Shown here piece after piece: positions 1 through 33,807 of a stretch of DNA of 33,807 bases. The notes below the pieces were generated by a model, which made no database searches, had not been told where the DNA came from, and worked only from the letters and a program-made list of their open reading frames with translations. The first letter of the stretch is position 1, and each line of letters starts with the position of its first letter. The position numbers and the translations under genes were made by a program. The stretch spans positions 1 to 33,807 of the forward strand of contig JAHFEE010000005.1 of assembly GCA_023248655.1 (NCBI GenBank), read 5' to 3'. Origin of the DNA: Myxococcales bacterium. GTDB taxonomy: Bacteria; Myxococcota; UBA727; JABDBI01.

Positions 1-1203
1 TTCTTTACATCCTACAATACAGAACAAGCATTTGAAATGTTAGAAGCAAATTCTTCTAAGAATGATAAGGATTATGTATTGACATTTAATTGGGTAGCTG
101 CTAAAAAATGTATGGATGATGGAAAGGCAAAACCCATCGCTGCAACCTATTTGCGTAATTTCAAACCTGAGAATAAGTATACTGAAACAACTAAATATAC
201 ATCAGTAAAATTACTTGATCCAAACGATTGCCCAGGAATAATGTATTATCTGCCTACTCCAAAAAATCCACACGGAGTAGATGTTGATCCAACAGGTGAA
301 TATATTGTAGCCGGAGGAAAACTTGCTGCAGTAATTCCTGTTCATTCTTTTAAGAAGTTTATCGCCTCTAAAGACGATAAAGATAATATAGTTGATGTCA
401 TTTCAGGAATTCCGGTTCTAAAGTATGAATCCACATTAGAAAAAGAAGTAGAGAAACCATGCTTAGGTCCCTTGCATACTGAATTCGATGGAAATGGATT
501 TGCTTACACTTCGTGTTTTGTTAGCTCAGAAATCGTAAAATGGAGCATGAAAGATTGGAAAGTGGTAGACCGAGTTCCGGCTTATTACAGCATTGGACAT
601 TTAAGCATTGCAGGTGGAGATTCTAAAACTCCAAGTCCAAAATATTTACTTGCTTTAAATAAAATAACAAAAGATCGTTACTTGCCAGTAGGAGCCGAAA
701 TTGCTCAAAGCGCACAGTTGTACACTATTACACCCAAGGGTATGAAATTGATTTTGGATTTCCCAACTACCGGAGAGCCACATTATGCACAGGGCATGCC
801 AGCAAGTCTGTTGTCTGCTAATGCACAAAAGATTTACAGATTAGAAGAAAATCAACATCCGTATGCAACTAAAAAAGAATCGGAAGCTAGAGTTGTTCGT
901 GAAGGAAACAATGTTCACGTTTGGATGACTGCAATAAGATCCCATTTTAAACCTGATATGGTTGAAGTTAATAAAGGGGATACGGTATTTTTTCATGTTA
1001 CTAATTTAGAGCAAGATTTTGATATTCCACACGGCTTTGCGGTGCAGGGTAATAAGAGTACCAATATCTTAATTATGCCAGGACAAACAAAGACGATACG
1101 TTTTGAAGCAGAACGTGCAGGAGTATTTCCATTCTATTGTACGGATTTTTGCTCAGCTTTACATCAAGAAATGCAACAATATATTCGAGTTAGGGATAAA
1201 TGA
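1..1203 (+). CDS. nosZ: Nitrous-oxide reductase, C-terminal part (5' truncated by window edge)
   Basis: Frame open from base 1; C-terminal cupredoxin CuA motif CTDFCSALHQEM; NosZ-like CFVSSEIVKWSMKDWKVVDRVPAYYSIGHL; followed by other nos genes. Confidence 0.96.
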   Translation, partial: FFTSYNTEQAFEMLEANSSKNDKDYVLTFNWVAAKKCMDDGKAKPIAATYLRNFKPENKYTETTKYTSVKLLDPNDCPGIMYYLPTPKNPHGVDVDPTGEYIVAGGKLAAVIPVHSFKKFIASKDDKDNIVDVISGIPVLKYESTLEKEVEKPCLGPLHTEFDGNGFAYTSCFVSSEIVKWSMKDWKVVDRVPAYYSIGHLSIAGGDSKTPSPKYLLALNKITKDRYLPVGAEIAQSAQLYTITPKGMKLILDFPTTGEPHYAQGMPASLLSANAQKIYRLEENQHPYATKKESEARVVREGNNVHVWMTAIRSHFKPDMVEVNKGDTVFFHVTNLEQDFDIPHGFAVQGNKSTNILIMPGQTKTIRFEAERAGVFPFYCTDFCSALHQEMQQYIRVRDK

Positions 1204-1805
1204 AATTATCTAGATCGAGTTCTTTATTGACAGGCCTCAGTACTATTTTTGTGCTGTTGGCCTGGTTTTTCCCTGTTTGGTCTATTAGGCTATGTGCCCC
1301 TCAGTACCCTGAAGGCCTTGGAATGAATTTATGGATGAATCATATAAGCGGAATTAATGAATTCGATATTGCTAATATGAATTTATTAAATCATTATATT
1401 GGCATGGCGGCTATTGATGAAAATAGTATTAAGGAATTCCACTATACGCCTTATATTATCGGTGTGCTTTGCGTGATTACAATATTGAATACCTATTTTA
1501 AGAAAACAATATTATTATATTTCCATTCTGCTTTTGTGGTTTTTTTTGGATTGATTGGATTGGCAGATTTTTGGTATTGGGGATATAGTTACGGCCACAA
1601 CCTTGATCCGCATGCTTCTATTCAGTTTCCAGGAATGAATTATCAACCTCCATTGCTTGGATGTAAGGAGATTTTAAACATTACTGCATGTTCGTATCCA
1701 AACATAGGAGCCTTATTGTTATTTTTAGCAGGTGTTTCTTTGGGTATATCAATTATAATAGCTTTAAAATGTCATAAGAAGAAAGGTATCGTAATTTGTG
1801 ATTAA
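1200..1805 (+). CDS. NosB-like integral membrane protein of clade II nos clusters
   Basis: Hydrophobic multi-TM protein directly downstream of nosZ with ATGA overlap; conserved-looking CAPQYPEGLGMNLWMNHISG...NLLNHYIGM segment; position matches nosB of atypical nos clusters. Confidence 0.7.
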   Translation: MKLSRSSSLLTGLSTIFVLLAWFFPVWSIRLCAPQYPEGLGMNLWMNHISGINEFDIANMNLLNHYIGMAAIDENSIKEFHYTPYIIGVLCVITILNTYFKKTILLYFHSAFVVFFGLIGLADFWYWGYSYGHNLDPHASIQFPGMNYQPPLLGCKEILNITACSYPNIGALLLFLAGVSLGISIIIALKCHKKKGIVICD

Positions 1806-2214
1806 TATGTATAGAGTGTTAAAAATCATGCCATTGATCTTATCTTTACTTGGTTGTGATGTGAAACATCCGGGTTTGTGGAAATCCGGAGAATATGATT
1901 GTAAACATTGTAAAATGCAAATAGAAGACCTTCGATTTAAAACAGCTGTTATAACCAAAAAGGGCAAGTTGGTTTCATTTGATTCAATAGAGTGTCTCTT
2001 GGAATGGTCAAAAAAAAATAATTTACAAATTAAAGATAGCTTTGTTGCTGATTTCAATCGGCCCAATGATTGGATTAAGTTCAAGAAATCTTTCATATTG
2101 CAAAGCAATAAACGTCCATCCCCTATGGGATCCGGGTTTTCTGCTTATTCTTCACAGGATGAATTATTAAAAGCACTTAACGTATTAGGGGGGAAACAAA
2201 TAAATATACCATGA
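1798..2214 (+). CDS. nosL: NosL-like copper lipoprotein/chaperone (GTG start; alternative ATG at 1807)
   Basis: Lipobox-like LLGC, CKHCKMQI metal motif, GSGFSAYSS segment; located between nosB-like and nosD. Confidence 0.85.
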   Translation: MINMYRVLKIMPLILSLLGCDVKHPGLWKSGEYDCKHCKMQIEDLRFKTAVITKKGKLVSFDSIECLLEWSKKNNLQIKDSFVADFNRPNDWIKFKKSFILQSNKRPSPMGSGFSAYSSQDELLKALNVLGGKQINIP

Positions 2215-3395
2215 AATGGATTTTATGTTTTTTTTCCCTGCAGCTTTTTTCTGGAAATCTTCAGGAATTGATCCGGAATGCCAAACCATTTGAAATTGTT
2301 AATGTCGATTCTGGAGTTTACCGAGAAGGTATGATTGTTATCGATAAACCGATTATCTTAAAAGGGATTGGCAGACCTGTCATTGATGGATCAAAGCAAA
2401 AAAATGTCATCAAAATAACATCCTCAAACGTAACAATTGAAGGATTTGAGATTCGTGCATCTGGCTATAGCGATATTGCTGAATATGCTGGGGTTAGAAT
2501 AGAAAATGCAAATAATTGCATTGTAAGAAATAATATCTTTAAAGAAAATGTTTATTCTGTTTATTTAGCTAAAGCTGAAAATTGCCTAATTGAGAACAAT
2601 GATATACATACTGTTTCAAATCGTGAGGCAACAAGTGGAAATGGAATTCACTTATGGAATTCCAAAAATACAAAAATCGTAAATAATTCAATAGAAGGTC
2701 ATCGAGATGGAATTTATATTGAATTTTCAGGGGATTCCTGGATAAAAGGTAATTCAGTAAAGCACAATATACGTTATGGCCTTCATTTTATGTATTCACA
2801 CGGAAACCAGTATATTGAAAATATATTTTCCGAAAATCAAACAGGAGTAGCAGTTATGTATTCAAAGCATGTTCATATGTTAAAAAATCGCTTTGAAAAA
2901 AGTTGGGGACATGCTTCCTATGGATTACTATTAAAAGATATTACTGATAGCGTTATCAGTGGTAATGTTTTCTTTGGAAATACAGTTGCTGTTTTGTTGG
3001 ATGCTGCAAATCGAAACAGATTCTACAATAATACTTTAGAAAAAAATGGCTGGGCTTTGCGGATACTCGGAAATTCAGAAGAAAACCTTTTCAAGAGAAA
3101 TCAGTTTATATCAAACTTTTTTGAAGTTACAACAAATTCCGAAAAATCAACAAATGATTTTAAAAATAATTTTTGGAGTACGTATCGCGGATATGATCTC
3201 GATAAGGACAATGTTGGCGATCAACCATTTAGACCAATGAAAATTTTTGGTCTCTGGGTTGCTAAATTCCCAGAGCTAGTCGTCCTGTTGGGTTCTCCAA
3301 TTGTTGAATTTCTTGAAATCGCGGAACGTGTTTTGCCTATTCTGACTCCTATAAATTTATTAGATTCAGCACCTTTAATCAGGAGGCCTTCTTGA
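2211..3395 (+). CDS. nosD: NosD, periplasmic right-handed beta-helix copper-site maturation protein
   Basis: Repeated N/I beta-helix rungs, YGLHFMYSHGN motif, nos cluster context. Confidence 0.93.
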   Translation: MKWILCFFSLQLFSGNLQELIRNAKPFEIVNVDSGVYREGMIVIDKPIILKGIGRPVIDGSKQKNVIKITSSNVTIEGFEIRASGYSDIAEYAGVRIENANNCIVRNNIFKENVYSVYLAKAENCLIENNDIHTVSNREATSGNGIHLWNSKNTKIVNNSIEGHRDGIYIEFSGDSWIKGNSVKHNIRYGLHFMYSHGNQYIENIFSENQTGVAVMYSKHVHMLKNRFEKSWGHASYGLLLKDITDSVISGNVFFGNTVAVLLDAANRNRFYNNTLEKNGWALRILGNSEENLFKRNQFISNFFEVTTNSEKSTNDFKNNFWSTYRGYDLDKDNVGDQPFRPMKIFGLWVAKFPELVVLLGSPIVEFLEIAERVLPILTPINLLDSAPLIRRPS

Positions 3396-4081
3396 ATTCA
3401 GCTCTTTCAATAGTAAATCTTGAAAAAAAATATGGAAAACAAGAAATTTTGCGAGGAATTGATCTTGAGATTTTAAAATCGTCCATCTATGCACTGCTTG
3501 GTCCAAATGGGTCCGGTAAGACAACGTTATTAAAGTCTATCCTTGGTATCGTTAAACCATCTTTTGTTGATGTCCTTGCCGTAGATTTGTCCACTGTGGG
3601 TTACATGCCTCAACAGCCAAATTTTCCACAAAATATGAGAGTTTTTGAATTATTAGATTTAATTATAATTTTGCGTAAAAAACCAGCAATTTATTTAGAT
3701 TATCTGTTGACGAAATTAGATGTTGGTAATTTTTATAAAAAATTTATTCGAGAGCTTTCGGGAGGAATGAAGCAGAAAGTTAACATTGTTCAGGCTTTTA
3801 TGTTTGAACAGTCGTTATTCTTACTTGATGAGCCTACGCTTGGACTTGATCCGCATCAGACTTATGTTTTAAAAGGTTTAATAAAAGAGAGGCGTTATTC
3901 CGGAGCAACTGTGGTTTTTAGCTCTCATATTATGAGTGAGGTTGAGGAACTTTCAGATGTGGTAGCATTAATAGTGGAAGGAGAGATCTATTTAAAAAAT
4001 TCCCCTGATACAATTAAGGCAATGGGTAATTTTAAAACCTTAGAAGAAGCGCTGCACAATTTTTGGGATGAAAAAATATGA
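3392..4081 (+). CDS. nosF: NosF, ABC transporter ATPase (TTG start)
   Basis: Walker A GPNGSGKTT, signature LSGGMKQK, Walker B LFLLDEPTLGLDP; AGGAGG 9 nt before TTG. Confidence 0.93.
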   Translation: MNSALSIVNLEKKYGKQEILRGIDLEILKSSIYALLGPNGSGKTTLLKSILGIVKPSFVDVLAVDLSTVGYMPQQPNFPQNMRVFELLDLIIILRKKPAIYLDYLLTKLDVGNFYKKFIRELSGGMKQKVNIVQAFMFEQSLFLLDEPTLGLDPHQTYVLKGLIKERRYSGATVVFSSHIMSEVEELSDVVALIVEGEIYLKNSPDTIKAMGNFKTLEEALHNFWDEKI

Positions 4082-4842
4082 AAACTTTGGCTTGGTTTGA
4101 ATTTAAAGAAACTATTCGACATAGATGGTGGTTATTTTACTCAATTTCGTTATTTTTACTCAGTTCATTGATTCTTTATATTGGATCAAGTGAATCAATG
4201 CGCGCAAATGCTTCACTACTTAATTTGGTTTTATTGTTAGTGCCACTGTTTTCATTAATTTTTGGCAATATGTGTTTTTGTGAATCTTTGCCCTTTCAGG
4301 AGATTCTCATAGCTTTATCTGTTTCTAGATTCCAAATATATTTTGGAAAATTGGTAGGACTTTTTTTAGCGTTATCTTCTGCTTTTGTAATTGGAATTGG
4401 TTTTTCTGCGTGGATTTTTTGGAGCGATATTTTTTTATTGCTCTTAATTGGAATTTTGTTAACTGCAATTTTTTTAAGTATAGCATTTTTTTTGTCAGCA
4501 ACCATTGATCGAAAAGAATTAGCTCTTGGTACTTTGTTAATAATTTGGTTATTTTTTTTCCTTATTTATGATATTTTAATTATGCAAATCGCATTAATTT
4601 TTGGAGACTACCCCTTAGAAATTCCTATGTTTATTATGATCTTTTTAAATCCTATCGATTTAGCAAGAATCCTTTTCACTATTCAGCTAGATTTATCGGC
4701 TATGATGGGGTATTCTGGGGCTCTTTTTCAAAAGTATCTCGGAGGATTTTTTGGTATTTCTATCGGAGTAATAGCATTATCAATATGGGTCATACTTCCT
4801 TCTTTTTTCGGTTATATTTTTTTTCAAGAAAAGGACTTTTAA
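4078..4842 (+). CDS. nosY: NosY, ABC transporter permease
   Basis: Multi-TM protein following nosF with ATGA overlap. Confidence 0.88.
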   Translation: MKTLAWFEFKETIRHRWWLFYSISLFLLSSLILYIGSSESMRANASLLNLVLLLVPLFSLIFGNMCFCESLPFQEILIALSVSRFQIYFGKLVGLFLALSSAFVIGIGFSAWIFWSDIFLLLLIGILLTAIFLSIAFFLSATIDRKELALGTLLIIWLFFFLIYDILIMQIALIFGDYPLEIPMFIMIFLNPIDLARILFTIQLDLSAMMGYSGALFQKYLGGFFGISIGVIALSIWVILPSFFGYIFFQEKDF

Positions 4843-23538: not shown

Positions 23539-23717
23539 TTTGTAAATTTCTGAATTCCAATATGACAAATTGAAACATTGGATCATTGCTAAGATTATTG
23601 CTATTCAAAATTATTAAATGATTTTGAATAATAGTTTTAAATATGCTTAGCAATATTAGCGATGAGGTTTACTTGCTAACGTTGCTCGTGTAATAAGAGT
23701 AACATATATAGAAATTT

Positions 23718-23792
23718 GGGCACATAACTCAGAGGAAGAGTGTTACCTTCACACGGTAAAAGTCATAGGTTCGAATCCTATTGTGCCCACCA
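23718..23792 (+). tRNA. tRNA-Val (anticodon CAC), encoded CCA
   Basis: Full cloverleaf: acceptor GGGCACA/TGTGCCC, anticodon loop TTCACAC, T-arm ATAGG TTCGAAT CCTAT, ACCA. Confidence 0.93.
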
Positions 23793-25361
23793 ATGAGATA
23801 TTTAGTAACCACGGCTCTTCCGTATGCGAATGGACCAATACATCTTGGTCATTTATTGGAACAAATTCAGGCAGATATTTTTGTTCGAGCTTTAAGAATG
23901 TCTGGAGACGATGTGATTTTCATATGCGGAGCAGATAGTCACGGCACTCCGATTGAAATTAATGCCCATAAGGCCAAACTACAGCCTTGTCATTATGTGG
24001 AGCAATGGCGTTTTGCGCAAGAACAATCTTTATCAAAATATTTAATTCAATTCGATAATGGATATGGCAGTACTCATACTGAATTAAATCAAAAAAACAC
24101 AGAACAAATTTTTAAAAAACTTTGCAACAATAAAGATATAATAACTAAGGAAATAGATCAATTTTTCGATACGCAAGCTAACAGATTTTTGCCTGATAGA
24201 TTCATCAAAGGAGAATGCCCAAAATGTTTTTCATTTGATCAATATGGAGATAATTGTGAAAAATGCGGCGCTGTATACAATCCAACAAATCTGATAAATC
24301 CAAGAAGTATACTGACAAATGAAACTCCGGTTATTAGAAGTAGTAAGCATTATTTTTTTAAATTATCTAAATACTCAAATAAAATAAATGAATGGCTTAA
24401 TAATTCTGATGTTTTTCAAGTAGAAGTTAAGAATTCACTAAAAGATTGGATAGGAACAGGTCTTAAGGATTGGGATATTAGCAGAGATTATCCTTATTTT
24501 GGATTCTTGATTCCAGGAGAAATTAATAAATATTTTTACGTTTGGTTAGATGCCCCAATTGGATATATTAGCTTATCGGAAGCCACTGGAAGAGAAAACA
24601 TCTGGATAGATTCTGAGACTAAAATTATCCACTTTATTGGGAAGGATATTATTTATTTTCATGGATTATTTTGGCCCGCAATCTTAATGAGTATTAATTA
24701 CAATTTGCCCAGCAAAGTCATGGTTCATGGAATGCTGACTATAGATGGTGAAAAAATGTCCAAATCTCGCAACACTTATATTTTGGCAGATCAATTTCAT
24801 TCAATTTTTAATCCAGAAGCATTAAGATATTATTTTGCTTGTAAATTAAGTGCCAATATTGAGGATATTGATTTTAATATTTCAGATTTGTGCTCACGGA
24901 TAAATTCGGATTTAGTTAATAAGATAATTAATCTTATAAGCAGAACGGTGCCTTTATTGCAGAAGAATTACAATGGTAAAATTACATCAATGGAACCTTT
25001 TATAGTTGATCGTGTTTGCGAAATTGCTAACAGTGTTGAAAATTACTATAGAGCTGGGCAAATAAATCAAGTAATTAAGAATGTAATACAGATAGCTGAC
25101 ATTTCAAATAAATTTTTACAAGACTTAAGTCCGTGGGATGCTTCCAAGTGTACAGCCAAAGATGCACATAAAGTTTTAAATACTGCGTTATGGTCTGGAA
25201 AGGTGTGTTTGGGATTACTAAAGCCAATTATACCAAATATTGCGGCAAAGATGGAAAATCTATTGGATTTGGAATTCGTTAATTTTAAAAATGTTTTAGA
25301 ACCATTAAGCAAACCAGTGCTTAAAAAATATATTCACTTATTTGAAAGAATTGTTGCATAA
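23793..25361 (+). CDS. metG: Methionyl-tRNA synthetase
   Basis: ALPYANGPIHLGHL (HIGH), CPKC...CEKCG zinc knuckle, GEKMSKSRN (KMSKS). ATG at 23793 taken as start rather than the TTG at 23781 that lies inside the tRNA. Confidence 0.95.
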   Translation: MRYLVTTALPYANGPIHLGHLLEQIQADIFVRALRMSGDDVIFICGADSHGTPIEINAHKAKLQPCHYVEQWRFAQEQSLSKYLIQFDNGYGSTHTELNQKNTEQIFKKLCNNKDIITKEIDQFFDTQANRFLPDRFIKGECPKCFSFDQYGDNCEKCGAVYNPTNLINPRSILTNETPVIRSSKHYFFKLSKYSNKINEWLNNSDVFQVEVKNSLKDWIGTGLKDWDISRDYPYFGFLIPGEINKYFYVWLDAPIGYISLSEATGRENIWIDSETKIIHFIGKDIIYFHGLFWPAILMSINYNLPSKVMVHGMLTIDGEKMSKSRNTYILADQFHSIFNPEALRYYFACKLSANIEDIDFNISDLCSRINSDLVNKIINLISRTVPLLQKNYNGKITSMEPFIVDRVCEIANSVENYYRAGQINQVIKNVIQIADISNKFLQDLSPWDASKCTAKDAHKVLNTALWSGKVCLGLLKPIIPNIAAKMENLLDLEFVNFKNVLEPLSKPVLKKYIHLFERIVA

Positions 25362-33179: not shown

Positions 33180-33192
33180 TAATGCGTAGTGT

Positions 33193-33275
33193 GCGGCGGT
33201 GGTGGAACGGTAGACACGCTACCTTGAGGTGGTAGTGGTTTTAAAGCTGTGGGAGTTCAACTCTCCCTCGCCGCA
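33193..33275 (+). tRNA. tRNA-Leu (anticodon GAG), CCA not encoded
   Basis: GCGGCGG/TCGCCGC acceptor, anticodon loop TTGAGGT, long variable arm. Confidence 0.92.
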
Positions 33276-33302
33276 TTTATTGTAATGAAAATTATAATAT
33301 AT

Positions 33303-33374
33303 GCTGGTGTAGCTCAACGGTAGAGCATCTGATTTGTAATCAGAAGGTTGCGGGTTCAAATCCCATCGCCAGCT
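33303..33374 (+). tRNA. tRNA-Thr (anticodon TGT), CCA not encoded
   Basis: GCTGGTG/CGCCAGC acceptor, TCTGA-TTTGTAA-TCAGA. Confidence 0.94.
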
Positions 33375-33405
33375 TGAAAATTTTGTGTTATTGAAGTGTA
33401 TTTAA

Positions 33406-33491
33406 GGAGGGGTGCCCGAGCGGCCAATGGGAGCAGGCTGTAAACCTGCCGGCGCAAGCCTTCGAAGGTTCAAATCCTTCTCCCTCCACCA
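33406..33491 (+). tRNA. tRNA-Tyr (anticodon GTA), encoded CCA
   Basis: GGAGGGG/TCCCTCC acceptor, GCAGG-CTGTAAA-CCTGC, long variable arm. Confidence 0.95.
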
Positions 33492-33504
33492 TTAGATATT
33501 GGAT

Positions 33505-33580
33505 GCGGGAATAGCTCAGTTGGTAGAGCATCAGCCTTCCAAGCTGAATGTCGCGAGTTCGAGCCTCGTTTCCCGCTCCA
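33505..33580 (+). tRNA. tRNA-Gly (anticodon TCC), encoded CCA
   Basis: GCGGGAA/TTCCCGC, TCAGC-CTTCCAA-GCTGA. Confidence 0.95.
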
Positions 33581-33605
33581 AATTTATATATTGTGTAACT
33601 ATTGT

Positions 33606-33681
33606 GCTGCTGTAGCTCAGTTGGTAGAGCACGTCCTTGGTAAGGACGAGGTCACCAGTTCGATTCTGGTCATCAGCTCCA
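33606..33681 (+). tRNA. tRNA-Thr (anticodon GGT), encoded CCA
   Basis: GCTGCTG/CATCAGC acceptor, CGTCC-TTGGTAA-GGACG. Confidence 0.94.
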
Positions 33682-33711
33682 TGTATTTAAAAATTAAGGA
33701 GTATTTAAGAA

Positions 33712-33807
33712 ATGTCAAAAGAGAAGTTTACCCGCGATAAACCCCATGTAAATATTGGGACTATAGGTCATGTAGATCATGGTAAAACTACCCTATCAGC
33801 AGCTATA
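33712..33807 (+). CDS. tuf: Elongation factor Tu, 5' part (truncated by window edge)
   Basis: [31 protein letters not shown] after AAGGAG. Confidence 0.97.

Follow-up and report, generated by a model that had tools for sequence, protein, structure and literature searches.

What becomes of a message whose initiation codon directly follows the 3' end of a tRNA? The question is raised by a window of 33,807 nucleotides, contig 19 of its genome assembly (G000; 477,542 bases, 91.5% complete, 31.9% GC). On the forward strand, ARAGORN places a tRNA-Val(CAC) gene at 23718-23792, with the acceptor strands GGGCACA and TGTGCCC, the discriminator A, and an encoded CCA at 23790-23792. The metG gene, for methionyl-tRNA synthetase (MetRS), occupies 23793-25361 of the same strand, and the CCA and the metG ATG (23793-23795) together form a junction at 23790-23795 with a spacer of 0 nt. 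The letters read ...TTGTGCCCACCA up to the end of the tRNA and ATGAGATATTTAGTAACC from the start codon on. A preliminary description of this DNA had reported the missing spacer, and had remarked that no Shine-Dalgarno (SD) sequence for metG could lie outside the tRNA; both observations hold, as only the acceptor stem and the T arm are found upstream of the ATG.

Is the start codon correctly assigned? The 522-residue product scores 521.6 bits against TIGR00398 (cut-off 336) and 634 bits against NF001100 (cut-off 587), and Pfam PF09334 agrees with its identification as MetG. Its N-terminus, MRYLVTTALPYANG, aligns with those of its relatives from the first residue on, and no further ATG or TTG occurs in frame until after the HLGH catalytic (HIGH) motif, so that, judging from the sequence, the start at 23793 is near-certain. 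The sole in-frame candidate upstream is a TTG at 23781, 12 nt 5' of the ATG, which lies inside the acceptor stem and has no SD. At its other end, the window's MetG is about 125 residues shorter than the 647-residue homologue of G005, whose extra C-terminal domain is probably a tRNA-binding domain.

How widely is the junction shared? We sampled the window's family with eight genomes of 0.3-1.8 Mb. Among the seven with metG, tRNA-Val(CAC) and its CCA abut the metG ATG in five (G000, G003, G004, G005 and G007). The MetG proteins of the last four are 58-62% identical to that of the window, and the DNA upstream of their tRNA-Val(CAC) is unrelated to the window's, except for a TTGACA element. In G002, which is one contig of 311,743 bases, tRNA-Val(CAC) and metG are still neighbors; the tRNA has no encoded CCA, and 8 nt lie between the discriminator and the ATG. 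In G001 and in outgroups from the same order, no tRNA precedes metG. The comparison of spacers among relatives, which the preliminary description had proposed as a check, thus favors a conserved junction in five genomes of the family crown, and does not extend it to G002, G001 or the outgroups. A CAC valine tRNA had also been thought notable for an AT-rich genome. The tRNA is inherited from a common ancestor, and it precedes metG in G005 as well, where the GC content is 41.8%.

The junction is not specific to metG. The tRNA list of G000 and the thrS loci show a zero gap between tRNA-Val(GAC) and thrS in G000, G003, G004, G005 and G007. A family-wide search for the pattern T arm-acceptor-CCA-ATG, with ARAGORN and translation of the matches, adds tRNA-Cys(GCA) abutting mvaD in G003, G004, G005 and G007, and tRNA-Gln(TTG) abutting prs in G003, G004 and G007. 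In all, there are 17 intact zero-gap junctions, at four unrelated loci in five family genomes. A search for wider gaps, together with the tRNA list of G005, finds three near-zero loci: tRNA-Leu(TAG) followed after 1 nt by tig, tRNA-Met followed after 2-3 nt by leuS, and tRNA-Leu(CAA) followed after 2-5 nt by rmuC. The identities of thrS, prs, mvaD and tig rest on NCBIfam matches above cut-off, that of rmuC on a match below cut-off, and that of leuS on reading the protein; the downstream genes of these near-zero loci were read in G005 (leuS and rmuC also in G000) and are assumed to be the same in the other genomes. As far as the sequences tell, thrS and prs each have an unambiguous start codon, and that of mvaD is near-certain. 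The G004 thrS has a frame shift soon after its start, which may be an assembly error. In G000, what follows tRNA-Gln is a prs pseudogene, decayed and interrupted by many stops, and the CCA/ATG is still present (contig C15, from the complement of 11273 downstream). No intact copy of prs was found in the 471 kb of G000 that were read, and PRPP may be imported or made by another route.

Could chance have joined these genes, or is the junction a general property of small genomes? A search of 179 genomes of the phylum for CCA/ATG yielded 15 matches outside the family, of which seven are true tRNAs and none stands before a recognisable gene. This survey and the conservation at four loci in five genomes rule out chance as the cause of the zero gap. 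We also looked at the streamlined SAR86 family (107 genomes of 0.8-1.5 Mb), in which the CCAATG pattern matches 35 genomes. Fifteen loci were read, and at most of them the junction adjoins no gene; in a repeated tRNA-Trp case, another ATG in the same frame has an SD of its own. Two cases, both judged by eye, are possible: one has a long ORF resembling gamma-glutamyltransferase behind a tRNA-Arg, the other a NusG-like ORF behind a tRNA-Cys. Apart from these two, we do not recognise the same phenomenon in the SAR86 loci read. One SAR86-family locus (L267, contig C7 of G191) has a tRNA-like 3' end, probably of tRNA-Gln, a short gap and a prs-like ORF; the tRNA-Gln/prs neighborhood may be older than its zero gap. 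In the full-text literature, with subscription papers and preprints outside the scope of the search, we found no bacterial leaderless mRNA that derives from tRNA processing.

What evolutionary steps led to the junctions? The thrS locus retains a series. In the outgroup G010, a terminator-like hairpin with a T run lies between tRNA-Val(GAC) and a full-length thrS; in G006, 19 nt separate the tRNA from a full-length thrS; in the crown, the gap is 0. The crown thrS genes (G000, G002, G003, G005 and G007) are without the N-terminal TGS domain, which G006 keeps. Trees place G006 (thrS) and G001 (metG) outside the crown with 100/99 support, so that, most simply, the metG and thrS zero gaps would have arisen once, in the crown ancestor, and reopened in G002. 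A scenario for their origin is that spacers probably shrank in a streamlining lineage, and the median same-strand gap in G005 is 8 nt.

What signals, then, could bring a ribosome to the metG start? The tRNA-metG transcript has a probable promoter region at 23647-23717 of the forward strand, proposed from a consensus scan, in which the match is weak in the window; in four relatives the scan finds TTGACA about 40 nt 5' of tRNA-Val(CAC). In relatives with larger genomes, the junctions that were checked have a TTGAC element at about the same distance from the tRNA. With a spacer of zero, there is no terminator between tRNA and gene. The acceptor stem fills positions -12 to -7 of the junction genes (TTGTGC or TTGCGC; CCGTGC or CCGTGT; CCGCCC, CCACCC or CTACCC; TCGGCA), and a leaderless transcript started by RNA polymerase at the ATG is rejected, there being no -10 box at about -12 to -7. 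The junction genes have no SD and hardly any alternative start. Is this simply how the family initiates translation? It is not: SD-like motifs exceed the control in G005 (26% versus 8%) and in G000 (20% versus 4%), which rules out a family-wide absence of SD use, and TANNNT is only slightly above control in the family genomes checked. From these counts, leaderless translation is not the general mode of these genomes. Elsewhere in the window, at 33192-33807, a tRNA-Leu-Thr-Tyr-Gly-Thr cluster is separated by a 30-nt leader from the first part of a gene for elongation factor Tu, an ordinary spacing, unlike that of metG.

The most economical reading is the one that the preliminary description had put forward, in which processing of the tRNA 3' end would release a leaderless metG mRNA. 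The tRNA-Val(CAC) and metG would be transcribed together from the tRNA promoter, and an endonuclease would cut directly after the encoded CCA, producing in one step the mature 3' end of the tRNA and an mRNA that begins with AUG, bears a 5' phosphate, and would be translated by leaderless initiation. The thrS, prs and mvaD messages would be made by the same route, and those of tig, leuS and rmuC nearly so, with 1-5 nt left before the start codon. We put the probability of such tRNA punctuation in a bacterium at about 60%.

Which nuclease might make the cut? RNase Z (TIGR02651) was found in none of the eight family genomes, and the same profile matches 14 of 14 controls; E. coli RNase BN gave no tblastn match in three near-whole family genomes. 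RNase E/G (TIGR00757) is found in G000 and in G003 through G007, and by this profile it was not found in G002, nor in G001, which is 73% complete. With no RNase Z match in the family, RNase E or G would be the likeliest nuclease. RNase E cleavage leaves a 5' phosphate. Leaderless translation requires a 5' phosphate (PMC9031893), so that an end made by RNase E would suit it. The dominant signature of RNase E sites is U at +2 of the cut, with R at -2 in the consensus (PMC5222698). At every CCA/AUG junction, A is at +1 and U at +2; the nucleotide at -2 is C, where the RNase E consensus has R. According to PMC7479834, citing Mohanty 2016, RNase E can form mature CCA ends directly.

Two accounts would do without a precise cut at the junction. 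Perhaps deletion bias merely joined tRNA and gene, with no special processing, and initiation is weak or non-SD on RNA that is uncut or randomly cut. The small genomes of the family and the other short spacers agree with such pure compaction, as does the thrS series from terminator and spacer to 19 nt to zero. One would then expect the tightest junctions where coding density is greatest, and this is the opposite of what is found: G002 is the densest genome, with a coding fraction of 0.85 against 0.72 in G005 and 0.73 in G000, yet it has no gap below 6 nt (metG +8, thrS +7), while G005 has three zeros, although the contrast concerns one fast-evolving lineage whose joint losses may be unrelated. 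Nor do the 107 small SAR86 genomes, with the mostly geneless loci and the SD-bearing second ATG described above, look like a parallel outcome of compaction, and we consider pure compaction unlikely. In the other account, each transcript meets one of two fates: a cut inside metG followed by exonucleolytic trimming to the CCA by RNase PH, RNase R and PNPase, which destroys the mRNA, or no cut, so that MetRS would be made only from transcripts with the folded tRNA still attached. In E. coli, tRNA 3' ends are usually made in a similar way, by endonucleolytic cleavage further downstream and subsequent trimming (PMC4681348), and the account is in keeping with the absence of RNase Z matches and with the homologues of RNase PH, PNPase and RNase R found in G000 and G005. 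Such trimming does not explain why the spacer is exactly 0 nt at four loci in five genomes; moreover, an acceptor stem that stays folded up to position -5 would impede ribosome entry at the AUG, and the arrangement would be costly for two essential synthetases. We think it quite unlikely.

The remaining rivals concern where the message or the protein begins. A promoter inside the tRNA gene might furnish a separate metG transcript, leaderless or with a short leader, independent of tRNA maturation, and a fair sigma-70-like pair, TTCACA-17-TCGAAT, is indeed present in tRNA-Val(CAC), from which transcription would start about 10 nt before the metG ATG. The bases of the pair belong, however, to the conserved anticodon and T arms, where tRNA function fixes them. 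Scores are lower at the mvaD and prs junctions, and where a -10 box would have to lie to serve a start at the AUG itself there is acceptor stem; an internal promoter is thus very improbable. That the metG start is misassigned, and the true start lies elsewhere, is hardly credible: the upstream TTG is the one point in its favor, the lack of an SD at that codon and the loss of the HIGH motif from any downstream start speak against it, and the thrS and prs acceptor stems contain no in-frame ATG, GTG or TTG at all.

If a cut at CCA/AUG is the better reading, what does the distribution of encoded CCA tell us? CCA is encoded in 26 of the 31 tRNAs of G005, in 17 of 39 in G000, and in one of 44 in G002. 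In G005 the gaps from the CCA to long ORFs are 0, 0, 0, 1, 3 and 5, and then at least 16. For the tRNAs of G000 that bear a CCA, the gaps are 0 (metG), 0 (thrS) and 2 (rmuC), then 11 and 17; for those without a CCA, they are 9 (mvaD), 10 (leuS) and 42. In G002, where the CCA is all but gone, the searches found no RNase Z, no RNase E/G and no separate RNase PH. A broader proposal is that maturation of tRNA 3' ends, probably by RNase E/G at CCA/AUG, is this lineage's standard leaderless-mRNA route for several essential genes, that protein supply is thereby tied to tRNA promoters and to the processing enzyme, and that loss of the enzyme and of the CCA forced the junctions open in the most reduced member. 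We offer this proposal tentatively, and hold it at somewhat less than even odds.

Is the coupling a means of regulation? The preliminary description had linked MetRS expression to tRNA processing. As regulation, this link finds no support, because neither tRNA-Val is cognate to MetRS or to ThrRS; cognate control of either synthetase by the adjoining tRNA is rejected for the same reason, both tRNAs being valine tRNAs.

The closest likeness is to animal mitochondria, whose transcripts are reportedly punctuated by tRNAs, as Ojala, Montoya and Attardi are said to have proposed in 1981. In both systems, protein genes directly adjoin tRNAs at several loci, with spacers of zero or nearly zero, and tRNA excision would set the 5' end of a leaderless mRNA. 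Here, unlike in mitochondria, the chromosome is bacterial, only some genes are involved, and the CCA is encoded and kept at the junction; also, the mitochondrial 3' enzyme is RNase Z, which was not found in the window's family. E. coli has dicistronic tRNA-mRNA transcripts, such as thrU-tyrU-glyT-thrT-tufB and metY-nusA. These likewise have a co-directional protein gene 3' of a tRNA with no terminator between, but they have a leader and an SD, whereas the family's spacer is zero. Known bacterial leaderless mRNAs, such as lambda cI and the mycobacterial lmRNAs, are for the most part transcribed from the AUG onward. They share with the junction genes the AUG start, the lack of an SD and the helpfulness of a 5' phosphate; those of the family would come instead from tRNA processing. 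RNase E action on E. coli proline tRNAs (Mohanty 2016, cited in PMC7479834) is similar in forming the CCA end by one endonucleolytic step, and differs in that the downstream product is not the body of an mRNA, while that of the family would be a leaderless mRNA. The same paper cites Minagawa 2004 for the RNase Z of Thermotoga maritima, which cuts directly after the CCA. The position of that cut after an encoded CCA is the same; this candidate is rejected for the window's family, in which RNase Z has no match.

If correct, the proposed punctuation would be a bacterial parallel of the mitochondrial one, at essential genes: two aminoacyl-tRNA synthetases, PRPP synthase and an enzyme of the mevalonate pathway. 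The junctions are natural substrates for a simple question. Can a single nuclease cut complete a tRNA and at the same time give rise to a leaderless mRNA? They also bear on how ribosomes start at AUG ends carrying a 5' monophosphate, and on the fate of such junctions once RNase E/G and the encoded CCA have gone. The junction genes would be misjudged by annotation and expression models that require a leader.

Further observations on the window and the family may be noted. G007 (C35, 126826-127950) and G001 (C12, 4251-5396) each carry a second MetRS-like gene, which is divergent and falls short of the metG cut-off. At 37-4842 of the window there is a nitrous oxide reductase cluster, comprising a nosZ ORF, NosD and an ABC ATPase, in a reduced genome of 0.48 Mb. 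The nosZ ORF scores 540 bits against the profile of the Sec-dependent clade, below its cut-off, and matches from profile position 216 on; by this alignment, either its 5' part is missing or the contig end interrupts it. It is possible that the organism of G000 is a respiratory symbiont.
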